Source: an uncultured Bacteroides sp.
GTDB lineage: Bacteria > Bacteroidota > Bacteroidia > Bacteroidales > Bacteroidaceae
Assembly: GCA_959606905.1 (NCBI GenBank)
Contig: CAUHML010000097.1
Coordinates: forward strand, 1-12,398
DNA length: 12,398 bases
Reading direction: 5' to 3'
Shown here: positions 27 through 7,142 of the stretch, piece by piece
Layout: the number at the start of each line of letters is the position of its first letter
How positions within the stretch are numbered: position 1 is the first letter of the stretch
The notes under the pieces: model-generated
Seen by the model: only the letters and a program-made list of their open reading frames with translations
Told to the model about the DNA's origin: nothing
Databases searched by the model: none
Position numbers and translations under genes: made by a program

Positions 27-46
27 TTCGGTAAAAATTTACCGAA
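27..46. repeat. Perfect inverted repeat at the break point of the GT32 gene
   Basis: Nine-base arms TTCGGTAAA (27-35) and TTTACCGAA (38-46) are separated by AA. The repeat covers the stop codon and last codons of the truncated glycosyltransferase at 39-299. On the minus strand the stem is followed by A-rich rather than T-rich sequence, so it is a poor intrinsic terminator. It may be the end of an inserted or rearranged segment, or a chance AT-rich palindrome. Confidence 0.6.
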
Positions 47-299
47 GTATTATATCCATGTATATTCCACCGTAATTATATACTGCATAAAGACGTATAT
101 AATCAGCAGCAAAAGCATATTTCTTAGCTTCGAAAGCCTGTTTTACCCATAAAGACCTATTCAAATCAAAACGGTTTAAATCCCATAGTATAAATTCATA
201 ATCATAAAGCTTTTCTTTCCAACTCTTCATGTATTTTTTTAAGTCTTTAGGGATAGGGTCATTACTTAACCAACAGTAATGTATTATTTTAGGAATCAT
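39..299 (-). pseudogene. GT32-family capsule glycosyltransferase, truncated at the DXD motif
   Basis: The 86 residues match the N-terminal half of GT32 (Gly_transf_sug, OCH1-like) glycosyltransferases. Visible signatures are the family start with IHYCW at residues 6-10, a W at 39 in a DYEFILWD stretch, AFAADYIRLY at 62-71 and GGIYMD at 77-82. The first Asp of the metal- and nucleotide-sugar-binding DXD motif should be D82. The expected second Asp is missing: the frame reads IILR and stops at TAA (39-41). Family members are normally about 230-260 residues. Neither other minus-strand frame restores a recognisable continuation in the 38 bases left in the window. The product would lack the catalytic metal site and is probably inactive. 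The ATG start lies 44 bp after the GT4 gene, in the same operon. A sequencing frameshift is less likely, because the downstream frames also close quickly. Confidence 0.7.
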
Positions 300-343
300 A
301 TTATAAATATAAGGCTAAAGATTTATGTATAATTCTTTTCATA

Positions 344-1504
344 TCAAAAAATAGAGAGCCATTGTTTCACTACTTGCTCTGCAGAAAAACGTTGTACTTT
401 CTTTATGGCACTCTCGGCAAGCCTATTACGTGTTTCCGAATCAAGCATCATATTTCTTACAGCTTCCACATACAAATCCATTCTGTCATTCTTTACGGTT
501 ATGCCATTTACATTATTTTCTATAACCTCATGCAAGCTCGGATAACTGTCGAATGCAACGGGAACTACCCCGAACTGTTGTGCTTCCGTAATGGTCAGCC
601 CCCAACTTTCCAATGCTGAGGTCATGAGAAAAACAGATGCTTTTTGATAATATGGAAGAGGATTTTTATTTCCTTCGAAATATATATTCTTTATATCATT
701 TTCAGCCACATAACTTTTATAGTTATTCTCGTCACTTCCGCTCCCTACAATAACCAACTTCCAATCCGCCAACCTGTCATCACTCATAAGTTCTTTCCAA
801 CTCCTTAGGGCAAGAGAAATTCTCTTAGGGTTCTCTACAAGCCTCGAAACAATAAGTACTACTTTTTCTTTTTCATAGATTTTCTCAAAAGGAAAGAATA
901 TATCGAACGAGAGAGTATTGGGTATCACACTGAACTTATCCGTATCCTTTATATGTCCGAAAGCTGTAAAAGGTTGTATCAATTCAGACGACAATAGAAC
1001 CACTTTGTCCGAATAGTCATAGGTATCTTTATATTTCAAAGGAAGCGCATATAAATGCTTTACTTTCAATATCGGATAAGCCGTCAACCTTAACATATTC
1101 GCCATAAGCCCCCGGCTTTTCCAACATTTAAGTACACTATTACTCCACGAAACATCTTCCCGCTCTACGCCAGGATAAAGGTGATGCGCAAATATTATCT
1201 TTATCTTCTTTCCGATTGCCTGCCTTATGCCTTTTGCTAATCCTAACTGCCCCTGAAGCAATACTACATCTATATCTTTCTTTACTATATAATCAATCAA
1301 AAGCGCCACATTCTTCCTGCTTCCAAGACATAGTCTTCCATCAAAAACAGTCTTCTTATAAAGGCTGTCTATCCCTTCATAATAAGCTAAATAACATCTA
1401 CACAGACATCTCTTCCTAAACTCCCTGCACAATGTATCGGTAATTCTCTCAGTTCCTCCCAAAAAGGGACTGACATCAAATGTATTTACAAAAAGAATAT
1501 TCAT
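344..1504 (-). CDS. GT4-family (GT-B fold) glycosyltransferase, capsule assembly
   Basis: This 386-residue protein should transfer a sugar from a nucleotide-sugar to the growing lipid-linked capsule repeat unit at the cytoplasmic face of the inner membrane. The N-terminal acceptor half starts MNILFVNTFD and has a Gly-rich GGTER at 16-20. The C-terminal Glycos_transf_1 half contains VIPN at 193-196, the strand VVLIVSRL around 215-222, KLVIVGSGS at 249-257 and the GT4 E-x7-E motif, E299 and E307, in ESWGLTITE. Length is typical. I start at ATG 1504 rather than the TTG one codon upstream. That ATG shares its A with the TGA of the preceding gene (TGATG), so translation is probably coupled. No signal peptide or membrane segment is evident. 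Donor and acceptor sugars cannot be read from sequence. Confidence 0.88.
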   Translation of the reverse strand: MNILFVNTFDVSPFLGGTERITDTLCREFRKRCLCRCYLAYYEGIDSLYKKTVFDGRLCLGSRKNVALLIDYIVKKDIDVVLLQGQLGLAKGIRQAIGKKIKIIFAHHLYPGVEREDVSWSNSVLKCWKSRGLMANMLRLTAYPILKVKHLYALPLKYKDTYDYSDKVVLLSSELIQPFTAFGHIKDTDKFSVIPNTLSFDIFFPFEKIYEKEKVVLIVSRLVENPKRISLALRSWKELMSDDRLADWKLVIVGSGSDENNYKSYVAENDIKNIYFEGNKNPLPYYQKASVFLMTSALESWGLTITEAQQFGVVPVAFDSYPSLHEVIENNVNGITVKNDRMDLYVEAVRNMMLDSETRNRLAESAIKKVQRFSAEQVVKQWLSIF

Positions 1505-2421
1505 CAATCAAAAAAGCCAAGTCCAAACTTCTTATCCAACCTTAACAATCCACCCCTCCAAAAATCAGGCTTTATATGTAATCCATCTATCACACACCAG
1601 TTGTCCGAAAAGTTAATAGTATGCAAGCCATCAGGATAGTTGCTTCTCGGCTGAGGATATAAAACTGCTACTTCTGTTTCTTCATACCTGTCCAAAGATA
1701 CAGAATCAACACACCAGATAACCGTACCTGCTCCATAATGTTCCAGACAATCCTGCGAAGGTCTATACAACTGACCGTTTACTCTAAAAAAATCACCTGC
1801 CATACGACTACCTCTAAGGCCCTTCTTCACACAGACTCCCTCCTTGGGATAGTAATTCCCCCAAATATTATCATCAGAACACCATAAATATAATTCTTCC
1901 TGATCACAGCCTTTTTTTCCACCGAACAACCAATATTTCCCGTTTTCATAAACGATGTTGGGATCGGATACCGGCATATCCAACAACGTTTTCACGTAGA
2001 TGCACTCTTCCCTTACCTCATCATAGCAATACAGTTTCAGTTTATCCGATGCTATATTTTCAGGAAGTATGTAGACTTTATCGTTCCAACGAAGAATATA
2101 CGGATATGACAGATGGCTTTTTATGGACAGTATTTTCTTTCTCCTTACTAATTGAAACGTTTTAGTACAAACAGTCAGTTTTACCAAAGTTGCCGCTCCC
2201 CCAAGAAATAGTGCTTCCTCTGCAAGAATTTCCAATGTGTCGTCCGTCTCTTTCAAAATAAAAGGATCAGCAAACATTCTATCACGATACTTATGCTTCA
2301 GCCAATGCACACTACATAAATCAAAATTTCCGAAGATGACATCCGTAGGCGTCGCTTTTATAAGACCTATGTTATAATCATAAATCTTATACCGTTGGGA
2401 TAATTGTTTTATATTTATCAC
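1504..2421 (-). CDS. GINT1-N-like (GH43-like beta-propeller) protein in capsule operon
   Basis: This 305-residue protein resembles the domain at the N-terminus of plant glucosamine inositolphosphorylceramide transferase 1 (GINT1-N), a five-bladed propeller related to GH43/GH32 folds. In bacteria it appears in glycan loci, sometimes fused to formyltransferase-like domains. Visible marks are FADPF at 50-54, HLSYPY at 103-108, ILPE ending at E121, SDPN at 152-155, RGSRMAGD at 203-210, GLHTIN at 265-270 and DGLH at 279-282. Acidic residues in ADP, PE and SDP occupy positions like those of propeller glycosidases, but activity is unproven. The start is GTG at 2421, preceded in frame by TAA four codons upstream. 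The next in-frame ATG is residue 49, inside the domain. The TGA overlaps the ATG of the GT4 gene. A sugar-modifying or glycosyl-transfer role is inference from context. Confidence 0.65.
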   Translation of the reverse strand: MINIKQLSQRYKIYDYNIGLIKATPTDVIFGNFDLCSVHWLKHKYRDRMFADPFILKETDDTLEILAEEALFLGGAATLVKLTVCTKTFQLVRRKKILSIKSHLSYPYILRWNDKVYILPENIASDKLKLYCYDEVREECIYVKTLLDMPVSDPNIVYENGKYWLFGGKKGCDQEELYLWCSDDNIWGNYYPKEGVCVKKGLRGSRMAGDFFRVNGQLYRPSQDCLEHYGAGTVIWCVDSVSLDRYEETEVAVLYPQPRSNYPDGLHTINFSDNWCVIDGLHIKPDFWRGGLLRLDKKFGLGFFD

Positions 2422-2461
2422 GATTACTTGAAGTTAAGAGAGTCAAATTATACATACTTGC

Positions 2462-3979
2462 TTATTTTCTCAAAATTATTCTTTTCAAAGCTTTTCTCTC
2501 TTCTAAATTAAATCCGAACATAAGACTGATACCACAAAAGCAAAGAACATTTATCAGTATCGGCAGGATACAATAATACGCAGTATATTCGTAGGAATTA
2601 TAAATAATATTTATCAAATATGAACAAAAACACATGCAGAAGAAAGTATAAAAAAACGGCACAAAAACCTTTTTTACATAAAGTTCTAAATCAAAACGCC
2701 CTATCCTTTTCGCTATATAAAGAATAATGAAAAAATTTATAAATTCAACTATCGCCATTATAATAAATACACTATATAGTGGTAAAGATGTATATTTCAG
2801 AACAATATAAGATAAAGGGAGTGCAGCACCTAATACAATAAATTCCGTTATCTGGTAAACTTTCAACTTGCCAATAATCATATAAAATATATCTATCGGT
2901 TCGTGAAAAGAGCGAATGGCAAGATAGATTAATATAGTCCGTACAAAAGCAATCGTATGCTCAGGAACGGTAGTCAGCCAAATAGATAGAATATCTTCTA
3001 TGTAAAAATATACAGGAAAAGCTATAGACAAATAAAAGAAAACAACCACTCGAGCTCCGACAAATAACATTTTGAAAAAGCTATTGAATTCACCCTTTGC
3101 ATAGAGTTGTGTAGCCTGCGGCTGAATTGCCAACATCACGTTGTATAACAACGTGGTTATTGCATTCTTTATTTGATATGCGATAGTTCGGGCAGCATTC
3201 ACCACAACTCCACCGAAAAGGTTCAGTACAATATTAAGTCCCTCGTTAACATATGAATAGGCAAAACTTCCTGCAAAATTCCATCCGGCAAAACTTCCCA
3301 TTTCTTTGAACAGACTCTTATTCCAATAAAATTTATATTTGCACTCTTCGAAATTTACTTTACAATAGATAGAGCACAACAGCCTCATCAGTAAAGACAC
3401 TGCCAATATCAGCATTGAGTATAACTGTAACTTATCCATTGCAAAGAAAGGAAGAATAAGAATGGCTCCCAACCTCAGAAAGGCATTCAATATAGATATA
3501 AAGGCATAGAACGACATACGTTCATGAGCTATTATCACAGCATCAAAAGGTATAGTCATGATTGAAACCATAGATGCCAATATCGAGAGGTGAAAAACCC
3601 AATGGGCGGATACCATGCGGGCGGAATCTATCACAAGTTTATTATTCAGGAACCATAACCCGATACCCTCTGCTATTATACAAAAAACTAAACTTATAAT
3701 GACATTGATGAGTATGCTCATATTAAAGACTTTCTGTAGAGCCCCTATATTGTCATTACCCATTTCGTAATTAAGAAACCTTTGGGTAGCAGTAGCAAAC
3801 AAGCCACGCAAAGAAGAAAATATGGCAACAACCCCTCCTACCAATCCATAAATACCAAAATCTGTAACGCCTAACTCCTTCAATAAAACCCGAGAACTAT
3901 AGAATGATATTAACATCAATACCAACATTCTAAAGCATAGAAAGATTGTATTTACAGCTATTTTCTTTGTCTTATCCAT
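2462..3979 (-). CDS. Wzx-type polysaccharide flippase (MOP/PST superfamily)
   Basis: This 505-residue, highly hydrophobic protein has about a dozen predicted membrane segments, typical in size and pattern for Wzx or O-antigen flippases. These move undecaprenyl-diphosphate-linked repeat units across the inner membrane for polymerisation. The N-terminus begins with MDKTKK, then a first helix, then the segment SSRVLLKELGVTDFGIYGLV, common in this family: a short charged stretch after helix 1 and a Gly-rich helix 2. Charged loops and a basic C-terminus follow. I start at ATG 3979 rather than the TTG three codons upstream. It is the first gene after the 331-bp gap that follows the initiating transferase, and it lies 40 bp before the GINT1-like gene. 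Codon use and base composition are strongly AT-rich, as often seen in exchanged capsule cassettes. The gene name wzx is avoided because identity to a named allele cannot be shown. Confidence 0.85.
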   Translation of the reverse strand: MDKTKKIAVNTIFLCFRMLVLMLISFYSSRVLLKELGVTDFGIYGLVGGVVAIFSSLRGLFATATQRFLNYEMGNDNIGALQKVFNMSILINVIISLVFCIIAEGIGLWFLNNKLVIDSARMVSAHWVFHLSILASMVSIMTIPFDAVIIAHERMSFYAFISILNAFLRLGAILILPFFAMDKLQLYSMLILAVSLLMRLLCSIYCKVNFEECKYKFYWNKSLFKEMGSFAGWNFAGSFAYSYVNEGLNIVLNLFGGVVVNAARTIAYQIKNAITTLLYNVMLAIQPQATQLYAKGEFNSFFKMLFVGARVVVFFYLSIAFPVYFYIEDILSIWLTTVPEHTIAFVRTILIYLAIRSFHEPIDIFYMIIGKLKVYQITEFIVLGAALPLSYIVLKYTSLPLYSVFIIMAIVEFINFFIILYIAKRIGRFDLELYVKKVFVPFFYTFFCMCFCSYLINIIYNSYEYTAYYCILPILINVLCFCGISLMFGFNLEERKALKRIILRK

Positions 3980-4310
3980 ATAAAACAATGCTTATAACCT
4001 TTATATTATTGAGGAAATTGCATTTATATATTATTTATGAAACATTACAAGTTACCCGTTTATTTTTAACTCTTGACAGTTTGAGAAGATCCAAACACAT
4101 TAAAAATAATGTAAAGTTCAAGATGTAATAATTAGGAAATTCTTTAATGATGCCTCATACATCATTGCCACCTCACTTGTCATCTGCTTTTCCATGTTAC
4201 GATCTTCACATGGTTTGATACTACTAATAATTTACTTATTATCAATTAATGAGCACTAAAAGATGGAGATTTCTGAAATTGAATTTTCCCTTTATCTTGA
4301 TGAAAAAATC
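3980..4310. other. 331-bp gap inside the capsule operon; possible gene remnant
   Basis: No convincing gene lies between the initiating transferase and the flippase, although other genes in the operon are separated by 53 bp or less. On the minus strand a short ATG frame, 4195 to 4118 (25 residues, rich in Met and Glu, beginning MEKQMTSEV), is the best candidate. Its frame stays open for some 12 codons upstream of the ATG without a further start. It has no clear ribosome binding site and I recognise no family. I also see no consensus promoter or terminator. It may be decayed sequence at a cassette junction. Confidence 0.5.
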
Positions 4311-4946
4311 TTAGAATTTCTTCCCGAACGCAATATTCATAAACGTCATAAAAAGTATCTTGGTATCAAAACCCCAGGAGCGATGCTCCAAATAGAATAA
4401 ATCATAACGCAGACGACGAATCATTTTCTCCAAAGTATCGGTATAGCCATTGTAAAGTGTAGCATACGAAGTGACTCCCGGACGAATCTGGAATAAATAA
4501 CGATAACGAGGATCCACCTCCATAATCTGGTCTATAAAGAACTTACGTTCGGGACGGGGGCCGATAAAGGCCATATCACCACAGAATACATTCCAAAGCT
4601 GGGGAAGTTCGTCCAGATGATGATCGCGAAGAAACCTGCCGACTTTCGTCATGCGGGGATCTTTTGCACCGGCGTAGAGAGCAGGGCCATACTTCTCTGC
4701 GTCCAGCTTCATGCTGCGAAACTTATAGATATTAAAAGGACGGCCGAACCTACCGATACGCTCCTGCTTGAAAATAGCAGGACCTCCATCTTCACTTTTC
4801 ACGGCAATATAACAAATCAAAAATAAAGGAGAAAAAACAATAAGTGCACCAAGGGCAAGAAAACAATCACCTATACGTTTCACATTGCGCTCGAAAGCAT
4901 TCATTCCGTCAGGAATAAAATGATCATCTTTCTCAATCGGTTCCAT
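4311..4946 (-). CDS. Initiating phosphoglycosyl transferase (bacterial sugar transferase, PglC/WbaP type)
   Basis: This 211-residue protein should start each capsule repeat unit by moving a phospho-sugar from a UDP-sugar to undecaprenyl phosphate at the inner membrane. It is the minimal monotopic form. A single hydrophobic re-entrant helix with an internal Ser-Pro (about 24-50) is followed by the catalytic PF02397 domain. Key motifs are FKQERIG at 59-65, KFRSM at 75-79, LDELPQLWNV at 111-120 with the catalytic Asp112-Glu113 pair, GPRPE at 129-133 and RPGVTS at 155-160. The large N-terminal membrane domain of full WbaP is absent. The ATG lies 53 bp downstream of upxZ. Many capsule operons have this gene last; here it directly follows the regulators. 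The substrate (for example GalNAc/FucNAc type or hexose) cannot be told from sequence. Confidence 0.93.
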   Translation of the reverse strand: MEPIEKDDHFIPDGMNAFERNVKRIGDCFLALGALIVFSPLFLICYIAVKSEDGGPAIFKQERIGRFGRPFNIYKFRSMKLDAEKYGPALYAGAKDPRMTKVGRFLRDHHLDELPQLWNVFCGDMAFIGPRPERKFFIDQIMEVDPRYRYLFQIRPGVTSYATLYNGYTDTLEKMIRRLRYDLFYLEHRSWGFDTKILFMTFMNIAFGKKF

Positions 4947-4999: not shown

Positions 5000-5461
5000 T
5001 TATTCTATCACTTCATAAGGGTATTGGTTTTCTTCAAAACTCTTTAGCTCTTCTATTATATCCACTTGCTCCAAAGTTAATTCTGCCTTATCCCAAGTGG
5101 CAATAATGCTATGAGCTTGCCTTGACAGTTCTTCATCATAAACTTCGCTATAACAATAGACAAGAAGTTGAACTTTGAGCAAAGATGCAGACAGTTTAGG
5201 AAGGACTTCCCAACTACGGTCCAATACTCGCTGAATGTATTGCTGCTTATGACCATTATCGTAAATAGTAGCGGCAAAAGCTGCTAAAAGGCCAAGACAA
5301 AGCTCAGCTTCGGACTCAACAGTCTTGCCGCGAGTGCCATAAAGCTCCAATGCCTGCTCGTAAACTTCACGGTTCAAACGTGTAAATTCGTCTACATAGA
5401 TAGGACTCCCGTCAAGCCCGTAAGTGAGAAGACGATGGGCTAAGGAAAATAATGAATCCAT
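5000..5461 (-). CDS. upxZ: UpxZ-type inhibitor of heterologous UpxY antiterminators
   Basis: This 153-residue soluble, mostly helical acidic protein begins MDSLFSLAHRLLTYG and has LNREVYEQALELYG at 29-42, as UpxZ proteins do. It lies directly after upxY (46-bp gap) as the second gene of the operon, which is the defining UpxZ position. In B. fragilis, UpxZ proteins block UpxY antiterminators of other capsule loci, so that one polysaccharide dominates per cell. The same trans role is inferred here. A 14-bp tandem duplication lies immediately upstream of the ATG, where ribosomes would bind. Identification rests on position plus family resemblance, because there are no catalytic motifs. Length is close to the usual 150-160 residues. 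Confidence 0.85.
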   Translation of the reverse strand: MDSLFSLAHRLLTYGLDGSPIYVDEFTRLNREVYEQALELYGTRGKTVESEAELCLGLLAAFAATIYDNGHKQQYIQRVLDRSWEVLPKLSASLLKVQLLVYCYSEVYDEELSRQAHSIIATWDKAELTLEQVDIIEELKSFEENQYPYEVIE

Positions 5462-5507: not shown

Positions 5508-6143
5508 TTACTCTTTTATGGGTTCTACCAAAGAAGGCGGAATAAAGGTAGTAGCTACAGCCATGACACCCTCTATATTAACCACCACACGACGGTCGTG
5601 GCGGATTCGGACAAACTCACCGATTACTCCCTCAAAAACACCACCGGTAATACGTACTTTCTGTCCCTTAACCAAATGCAATTCGGCCGGCTCTACATAA
5701 AGAACCGCTTCGTCACAATTGCCTGCCACCAAAATAAAGCTACGCATTTGCGATTCGGGAATTACAACCGGACGACAATGCTCACGATTCATAATAAAAC
5801 GTATAGGCATGGACGATTCAAGCCTGTCTTTCAAAGTATCTATACGTTTACGGGTAGAGTAAACAAAAACAAGATTGTGAATAGCCGGAAGCAGTTTACG
5901 GACGCGCTTCCCCGATTTCATGATATACTCATAACGCATCGGGATGAAATTCTCAATATTCTCGGCATCCAGAATTGCTTTTAACGCTAATTCACGGCTA
6001 TAAGAAACACGAATCGCAAACCAACAATTACTTCCTTCATTTTCAGCCGGTAATTGCATATCGGGTTTACATTGTAACTCGGATGATTTATTTACTGATA
6101 AACGGGACATTAATCTGTGATAATGCAAGATTTGGAATAACAT
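5508..6143 (-). CDS. upxY: UpxY-type NusG-like transcription antiterminator of the capsule operon
   Basis: This 211-residue NusG/RfaH paralogue should let RNA polymerase read through termination in the leader of its own capsule operon. The NGN domain spans about residues 38-140, starting with the family's aromatic NCWFAIRVSYSRE at 39-51 and including ENFIPMRYEY at 64-73 and LLPAIHNLVFV at 84-94. A C-terminal KOW domain follows at about 157-190, with VKGQKVRITGGVFEGVIG at 158-175. An unusual 37-residue polar N-terminal extension precedes the NGN domain. I keep ATG 6143, which has AAGG four bases upstream; ATG 6110 (residue 12) is a possible alternative without such a site. It is the first gene after the invertible promoter, the usual UpxY position. 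In this DNA orientation that promoter faces away, so expression should be low. Confidence 0.93.
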   Translation of the reverse strand: MLFQILHYHRLMSRLSVNKSSELQCKPDMQLPAENEGSNCWFAIRVSYSRELALKAILDAENIENFIPMRYEYIMKSGKRVRKLLPAIHNLVFVYSTRKRIDTLKDRLESSMPIRFIMNREHCRPVVIPESQMRSFILVAGNCDEAVLYVEPAELHLVKGQKVRITGGVFEGVIGEFVRIRHDRRVVVNIEGVMAVATTFIPPSLVEPIKE

Positions 6144-6153
6144 GAAGCCTTGT

Positions 6154-6178
6154 AAAAAGGGTGTTCTTTAGGGACACC
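6154..6178 (-). terminator. Candidate leader terminator or attenuator before upxY
   Basis: Read on the minus strand, GGTGTCC and GAACACC form a seven-base stem with one C·A mismatch and the loop CTAAA. It is followed by C and then TTTTT (6158-6154), ending 10 bases before the upxY ATG. The stem plus U-tract resembles a weak intrinsic terminator, a plausible stop that UpxY would overcome. The mismatch and the short U-run make it weak, and it may instead affect translation. Confidence 0.4.
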
Positions 6179-6300
6179 GGAGTAGCGTAATACTTACCGA
6201 TCAAGTCATGTAATGCAGTTATTTCCAATAGTTTAGTTAGCATTCATATTGTTTTAGAACTTCCTACCATCACGGAAAAAGAAGTCGAAAAACAGTTATG

Positions 6301-6333
6301 TTAGTTTTTAGCTTATAAAAAGCTGAGAACTAA
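6301..6333. repeat. Inverted repeat (hairpin) in the capsule leader
   Basis: TTAGTTTTTAGCTT (6301-6314) and AAGCTGAGAACTAA (6320-6333) face each other around the loop ATAAA. As plus-strand RNA all 14 positions pair (two G·U). As leader (minus) RNA 12 of 14 pair, with two C·A mismatches. It would lie about 40-70 nt after the ON-state start site, a position where an RfaH/NusG-type factor could be recruited at a pause. No T-tract follows, so it is not an intrinsic terminator. Confidence 0.55.
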
Positions 6334-6355
6334 TAATCTAAAAAGAGAAAGTATC

Positions 6356-6372
6356 TTTTAGACGTTCGTTTA
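6356..6372 (+). repeat. Left inverted repeat of invertible promoter segment
   Basis: TTTTAGACGTTCGTTTA is the left arm, matching the reverse complement of 6561-6577 at 16 of 17 positions (only G6361 differs). It contains AGACGTTCGT, which fits the ARACGTWCGT core that I recall for the B. fragilis capsule promoter inversion sites acted on by the Mpi serine recombinase. Confidence 0.88.
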
Positions 6373-6521
6373 AAAGACACTCTTTTTAATGAGAAGTTCA
6401 ATAGACGTATTTATATAAATAATAAAATAGTAATGAGGTCTTTTGAAGCGTGGATAATAAATTGATTTAAAGTAATTTGTCTAAAAAATAGTTTCTGTTT
6501 GGAAATATTCTTATTAAACAT

Positions 6522-6553
6522 TTTGCCCGTTAAAAAAATAGGTTGTATCTTTG
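6522..6553 (+). promoter_or_regulatory. Consensus Bacteroides promoter inside the invertible segment
   Basis: TTTG (6522-6525) is followed after exactly 20 bases by TATCTTTG (6546-6553), matching the sigma-ABfr consensus TTTG, N19-21, TAnnTTTG. Transcription would start near 6558-6562, at the edge of the right repeat, and run right into a region without a known gene and then antisense to manA. After inversion it would serve upxY. Confidence 0.85.
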
Positions 6554-6560
6554 CGCACAA

Positions 6561-6577
6561 TAAACGAACGTTTAAAA
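6561..6577 (-). repeat. Right inverted repeat of invertible promoter segment
   Basis: Read on the minus strand this is TTTTAAACGTTCGTTTA, the partner of 6356-6372. Its core is AAACGTTCGT. It lies directly downstream of the -7 box of the promoter in the present orientation. Confidence 0.88.
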
Positions 6578-7077
6578 AACATTTTCCCTTTTTTGGCATA
6601 GTATATTATGCTACTATCACATTACCTCTTCATACACCTCTACCAAAGGAAATACATAGCTTGATTTGTTGGTGTATATCACCGATAAAAATGATTTTCA
6701 GGATTAATTGTTTTTCATCATTAATCATCATAAAGCATAAAACAAAACTAAGAAGATGATGAAAAAGTCATAACGGAAGAAAGAAGTCTCGAAAAGATGT
6801 TTCCGCTACCCGCACTGGGACATGCCAACAATAAGCAAACGCACAATTATGGCAAACCTATATTCACCTTACTGCAAATGAGAATTATAAATTCCAAAGA
6901 AATCAATGCTATTTCGCGGTTATCCGGCTATAAAAAATTAAATGGTTGCACATGGTTAAAGAATACACACCACATGCTGTAGTGAAATCGTAGCCAAAAG
7001 GAAACATCCTATTACGGCATTTGCCAAAGAGAAGAAAAAGACAGAAGTTTAATATCTGGAAATTAAAAGAACATATC
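6578..7077. other. 500-bp gap between capsule switch and manA terminator; no confident gene
   Basis: The stretch is AT-rich and lies downstream of the promoter in its present orientation. The best frame is 6797-6982 on the plus strand: 61 residues beginning MFPLPALGHANN and ending KNTHHML. It is open from about 6746, has no clear ribosome binding site and I recognise no family. A start-like MMKKS frame at about 6756 stops after five codons. I see no T-rich terminator for the rightward transcript. The region could specify a non-coding transcript in the OFF state, or be decayed sequence. Confidence 0.45.
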
Positions 7078-7120
7078 AAAAAAAAGAAGTTAACACCATT
7101 GGCTACATGATGTTAACTTC
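7078..7120 (-). terminator. Intrinsic terminator of manA
   Basis: On the minus strand a 10-bp perfect stem, GAAGTTAACA (7120-7111) with TGTTAACTTC (7095-7086), closes a 15-base loop. Eight T residues (7085-7078) follow immediately. It lies 22 bases after the manA stop codon and separates manA from the capsule switch. On the plus strand no T-run follows, so it should not stop rightward transcription efficiently. Confidence 0.82.
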
Positions 7121-7142
7121 ATTACAGTAATAATATCAACTC

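Follow-up and report, generated by a model that had tools for sequence, protein, structure and literature searches.

Gene content of the capsule locus

The window (the whole stretch of DNA that was analysed, 12,398 nucleotides) holds a capsule operon on the minus strand, headed by upxY and upxZ (both identified by profile matches over the cut-offs), with manA to the right of the switch and likewise on the minus strand. The features on which the analysis rests are as follows (coordinates are those of the window).

2462-3988, minus strand: polytopic membrane protein, presumably a polysaccharide flippase (ORF judged by eye)
4311-4946, minus strand: bacterial sugar transferase, third capsule-operon gene (PF02397)
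5000-5461, minus strand: upxZ, antiterminator antagonist (PF06603, over cut-off)
5508-6143, minus strand: upxY, NusG-like capsule antiterminator, first operon gene (NF033644, 171 bits against a cut-off of 100; PF02357; likely start 6110)
6144-6355, minus strand: operon leader, from the switch to upxY (94% to B. clarus over 6100-6372)
6356-6372, plus strand: left inverted-repeat arm TTTTAGACGTTCGTTTA; 6360-6369 is its core, AGACGTTCGT, and 6365-6366 the central TT, the presumed crossover
6373-6560, no strand: putative invertible segment of 188 bp between the arms
6522-6553, plus strand: promoter of the Bacteroides type, TTTG-N20-TATCTTTG, directed away from upxY (OFF)
6561-6577, minus strand: right inverted-repeat arm TAAACGAACGTTTAAAA; core AAACGTTCGT at 6564-6573 on the minus strand, centre at 6567-6568
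7086-7120, minus strand: terminator-like hairpin behind manA (14-pair stem and 8 T)

As the hairpin at 7086-7120 follows manA, transcription of manA would be kept out of the capsule operon. No recombinase was found among the seven window genes searched (upxY, upxZ, the sugar transferase, manA, galM, MFS and galK; the ORFs at 39-3988 lay outside this search). An Rfam search of the window returned nothing above the gathering score, the one SNORD74 match (18.3 bits against a gathering score of 41) being dismissed as chance, and a plasmid collection gave no match.

The leader at 6144-6340 is better conserved against B. clarus than the segment (84%), holds a GGTGTTCTTTAGGGACACC hairpin and is related to sequences at other loci, including one in the nearest genome (G001) where the paired motif is absent (L043). 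A conserved ORF within the leader (MLTKLLEITALH...) was considered as a leader peptide and set aside; elsewhere this stretch forms, in a different frame, the beginning of upxY, which makes an RNA or DNA element for UpxY likelier, and 6144-6340 is possibly the element on which UpxY acts.

Anatomy of the switch

The arms are complementary at 16 of 17 positions around the 188 bp, exactly as the sequence-only reading of this DNA had described them, and a weaker similarity between them extends to 33 nt at 85% (6340-6372 / 6561-6593). This arm pair is the only 17-mer inverted repeat in the window with at most one mismatch and a loop of 150-250, and any such repeat arose in only 1 of 60 Markov-1 shuffles. 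The motif ARACGTWCGT has exactly two matches in the 12.4 kb, one in each arm and on opposite strands. Both arms have dyad symmetry about a 2-bp centre, and in the left arm the dyad itself can be followed over 6337-6364 / 6367-6394 around TT (71%).

The segment contains one TTTG-N20-TATCTTTG promoter, with 18 nt from the end of its -7 to the outer end of the 8-bp core of the arm. Since this promoter lies on the plus strand and upxY on the minus strand, it points away from upxY, as that reading had also proposed. Taken alone, the promoter pattern is not above chance (at least one match in 108 of 200 shuffles).

The paired motif across the genus

The paired core with a gap of 170-200 bp was present in 21 of the 149 genomes sampled from the genus, with 90 pairs summed over genomes, while the control pattern, read backwards, matched in 2 of 149 genomes, once in each. 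The strict pattern had no match in G001, because a single base is changed in one arm of the pair there and the remaining pair spans a shorter distance, 184 bp core to core. Both G001 pairs were recovered when the core pattern was relaxed (control matches in 1 of 3 and 2 of 9 genomes). The shorter one (L038, 4415-4598) lacks a match to the promoter pattern, and no upxY was hit within 1.5 kb of it.

For a closer comparison 63 pairs were examined, comprising the window, the two G001 loci and 60 of the 90 strict pairs, hand-picked rather than random (G074, G081, G086, G104, G135, G168 and G173 were left out entirely, and G163, G164 and G165 in part). Many of the 63 are orthologous, and 33 are non-redundant. 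The outer ends of the 8-bp cores are 208-211 bp apart in 51 of the 63 pairs. When the promoter pattern was relaxed slightly, 60 of the 63 matched it, each with 17-19 nt between the end of the -7 TTTG and the core's outer end, and the other three had no match.

The two central bases were identical between the arms in every pair (63/63; 53 TT/TT and 10 TA/TA), whereas the R base, four positions from the centre, differed between the arms in 22 of the 63; among the 33 non-redundant pairs the centre was matched in all 33 and R in 22. The search pattern fixed the first base of the centre as T but allowed A or T at the second, separately for either arm, which left room for mixed pairs to be detected. 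Serine recombinases make a 2-base staggered cut and require identical central bases for religation, and the matched centre is therefore what such an enzyme would maintain. The ten loci with TA in both arms instead of TT are L093, L106, L110, L117, L121, L127, L129, L134, L139 and L142; as TA is self-complementary, the centre cannot set direction in these ten switches. A matched-centre rule was not found in the literature searched, which was searched largely by terms other than its own, and the rule may well be in print.

Orientation of the segment in related genomes

The nearest genome, G001, encodes UpxY and ManA proteins 99.5% and 100% identical to those of the window, and there the segment is 97% identical and in the same (OFF) orientation, with one further base change in the right arm. 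B. clarus YIT 12056 (G032/L035/L044) aligns collinearly with the window through the left flank (94%) as far as the left arm reaches; its segment is 84% identical to that of the window when inverted against 50% when compared directly, and collinearity resumes in the right flank at 79%. The breakpoints fall within the arms, and the promoter of this genome is directed toward upxY. Among the six genomes checked for the manA-flanked locus (window included), four were OFF (window, G001, B. gallinarum and B. propionicigenes) and two ON (B. clarus and G156). Both orientations between collinear flanks thus exist across species, the segment being inverted in B. clarus and not in G001 or B. gallinarum, which is direct comparative evidence, at the level of species and not of a single culture, that the segment has been inverted between these arms. 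Conservation of the repeats in relatives, on which the sequence-only reading had been made to depend, was found, together with the inversion.

A chance inverted repeat next to a chance promoter is extremely improbable in the light of this inverted counterpart in B. clarus, of the regular geometry among related pairs and of the shuffles, none of which (0/200) reached the two motif matches of the window, even granting that the promoter pattern by itself is expected by chance in so A+T-rich a window.

An upxY gene could be assigned to 37 of the 63 related loci, of which 26 were OFF, 10 ON and one ambiguous (a second, weak promoter match, with the main promoter OFF). OFF is therefore the commoner state in related assemblies and the window is ordinary in its orientation. 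This bears on whether the locus might be a former switch, now locked, in which the repeats persist and the operon is permanently off in the lineage. The window and G001 are indeed both OFF, the window arms match at 16 of 17 positions and the right arm of G001 carries its further change; against this, the 8-bp cores and the central TT are intact in both arms, mismatches at R are common (22/63), the segment and UpxY are 97% and 99.5% identical to those of G001, the frames of upxY and upxZ are open, as is that of Mpi in G001, and OFF is the usual state of such loci. We consider a locked switch very unlikely.

Recombinase candidates

The search for an Mpi-like recombinase that the sequence-only reading had suggested was made in G001, and such an enzyme is present. 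G001 encodes three resolvase-type proteins, two of them over the curated cut-off of the Mpi family. One, of 198 aa (NF009949, 291.9 bits against a cut-off of 272), is 81% identical to the Mpi of G106 (taken as B. fragilis NCTC 9343); the other, of 202 aa (348.8 bits), is 46% identical to the first. Judged from this nearest genome, the genome of the window itself probably also encodes an Mpi.

With subfamily membership set at 65% identity or more, the subfamily of the 198-aa Mpi was present in 19 of the 21 genomes with a strict pair, against at least 8 of the 128 without one (Fisher p ~9e-16, uncorrected for kinship), and the two strict-pair genomes lacking it are 74% and 60% complete. Among the matches listed, in which weaker second hits may be missing, 48 genomes had an Mpi-family hit over the cut-off and 44 were classified; the unclassified genomes (G022, G088, G105 and G136) have no strict pair, and loci L209 and L213 were dropped from the classification for want of a protein. 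One of the at least eight genomes with Mpi and no strict pair is G001, with its two looser-pattern pairs. Seven genomes with the capsule-type Mpi (G036, G067, G068, G072, G082, G098 and G112) had no pair even by the looser pattern, which shows that the enzyme can occur without the site; these seven may use other sites.

The presence of a second Mpi-family protein in G001 means that the 202-aa protein could be the actor, and more generally a real invertible capsule promoter might be flipped here by an enzyme other than the 198-aa Mpi, be it this second serine recombinase of the family or some tyrosine recombinase. Two G001 proteins do exceed the Mpi-family cut-off, and Tsr19 and Tsr0667 are reported to flip other B. 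fragilis promoters (PMC4747536). The repeats of the window, however, match the Mpi core exactly, and the matched 2-bp centre of the arms fits serine recombinase chemistry. Moreover, a strict pair was found in just 4 of the 16 listed genomes with the 202-aa subfamily (at least 65% identity), or 5 counting G001, and the 202-aa gene in G001 (L008) adjoins a gene that resembles, by eye, a restriction-modification specificity protein. Another recombinase is, on these grounds, very unlikely.

Comparison with known switches

Capsule promoters of B. fragilis lie between inverted repeats with the core ARACGTWCGT and are flipped by the Mpi serine recombinase. The window shares with them the ARACGTWCGT arms, a promoter near one arm, a segment of about 0.2 kb and, where it can be assigned, an upxY gene behind. 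The six strict pairs of G106 measure 197-211 bp core to core, and that of the window 210. The differences lie in the species and the capsule locus, in a recombinase (that of G001) 81% identical, and in an upxY 27-63% identical to the four assigned in G106. In Salmonella, the hin/hix switches combine a dyad site around a 2-bp centre, a serine recombinase and a promoter on the segment; the window resembles them in the dyad site with its 2-bp centre, the promoter on the segment and the candidate serine recombinase, but differs in that no recombinase gene lies on the segment, the gene for the candidate enzyme being at a distant place in the G001 genome. A likeness of the B. fragilis repeats to the hin/hix type is already announced in the title of Patrick et al. 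2003.

Mpi of B. fragilis inverts 13 regions, seven capsule promoters among them (PMC4747536), and the capsule promoters of B. intestinalis lie on invertible stretches of 183-186 bp bounded by GTTCGTTTAA, a repeat that its authors describe as overlapping that of Mpi, ARACGTTCGTN, both orientations having been quantified from reads and RNA starting inside the proximal repeat (PMC8375218). PVR7-12 of B. intestinalis resemble the window in length (183-186 against 188 bp) and in repeat (GTTCGTTTA of GTTCGTTTAA is present in both window arms), and that genome, as described there, has at least two Mpi homologues; inversion in B. intestinalis was measured by reads and RNA-seq (PMC8375218), whereas that of the window is seen only in the comparison between species. 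A survey of a defined community reports that upxY genes near invertons consistently have the orientation that suits inverton control (PMC11892184). The window agrees with published capsule switches in the features tested, and as a new example of a familiar type of switch it is well supported.

Proposed mechanism

The locus is very probably an Mpi-type site-specific invertible promoter controlling the capsule operon of a Bacteroides close to B. clarus, probably B. stercoris. The claim of the sequence-only reading that it is the same type of switch as the Mpi promoters of B. fragilis is largely supported by the anatomy, the inversion in B. clarus, the Mpi of G001 and the co-occurrence of enzyme and paired motif.

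In the proposed mechanism, an Mpi-family serine recombinase encoded elsewhere would bind both arms, cut at their identical central TT and religate the segment inverted. In the sequenced orientation the promoter would read to the right, toward the 3' end of manA, leaving the upxY-upxZ operon without the switch promoter; in the inverted state, transcription would start at the left arm and run through the leader into upxY, and the leader would be transcribed from the switch in the ON orientation only. We infer that Mpi acts on the switch here, that both orientations coexist in the strain of the window and that in the OFF state this locus yields no capsule; that most of the population is silent follows only from the orientation of the consensus.

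The far side of the switch

In B. clarus and B. gallinarum two genes lie between the switch and manA and are read in the OFF direction; a profile search identified those of B. clarus as WYL_2 and Lin1244_N. The Lin1244_N gene is intact behind WYL_2 in B. clarus and, by its look, also in B. gallinarum. Of these the window retains only a remnant of the Lin1244_N (DUF4373-like) gene, located within about 6772-7126 and 75% identical to the region of B. clarus where that gene ends. On the far side of the 37 assignable loci, at least 12 have a Lin1244_N-type gene, toward which an OFF promoter would read, and another two probably do; in most cases a WYL_2-type gene precedes it. These calls rest on first residues only, and many of the 37 loci are mutually orthologous.

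Counting ORFs of 90 aa or more, the first one on the far side runs with the OFF promoter at 21 of the 37 loci and against it at 15, and is absent at one. Both relatives checked have a -7-like box belonging to the module itself, about 130 nt upstream of it, and a weak terminator-like hairpin is present on the plus strand of the window (6665-6689). In view of these mixed directions, of the box and of the hairpin, the OFF promoter is at most an unlikely driver of the module. On a broader conjecture, which we rate as unlikely, OFF would not be silent: the ancestral switch would have been a two-way toggle between capsule and the Lin1244_N module, the window having a decayed module and a promoter left facing the 3' end of manA, and the switches would fall into TT and TA classes. 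Were this so, the OFF promoter could make antisense RNA against manA, and there would be two crossover classes, TT (directional) and TA (self-complementary), unmixed in the 63 pairs examined.

Implications

The Mpi-type reading of the locus extends a known capsule switch to the B. clarus group, with both states found at one chromosomal address in sister species. The comparison also yields a testable rule: the W base of the core is part of the presumed crossover dinucleotide and matched from arm to arm in all pairs examined. With this rule, functional switches could be picked out of assemblies by a simple check of W.
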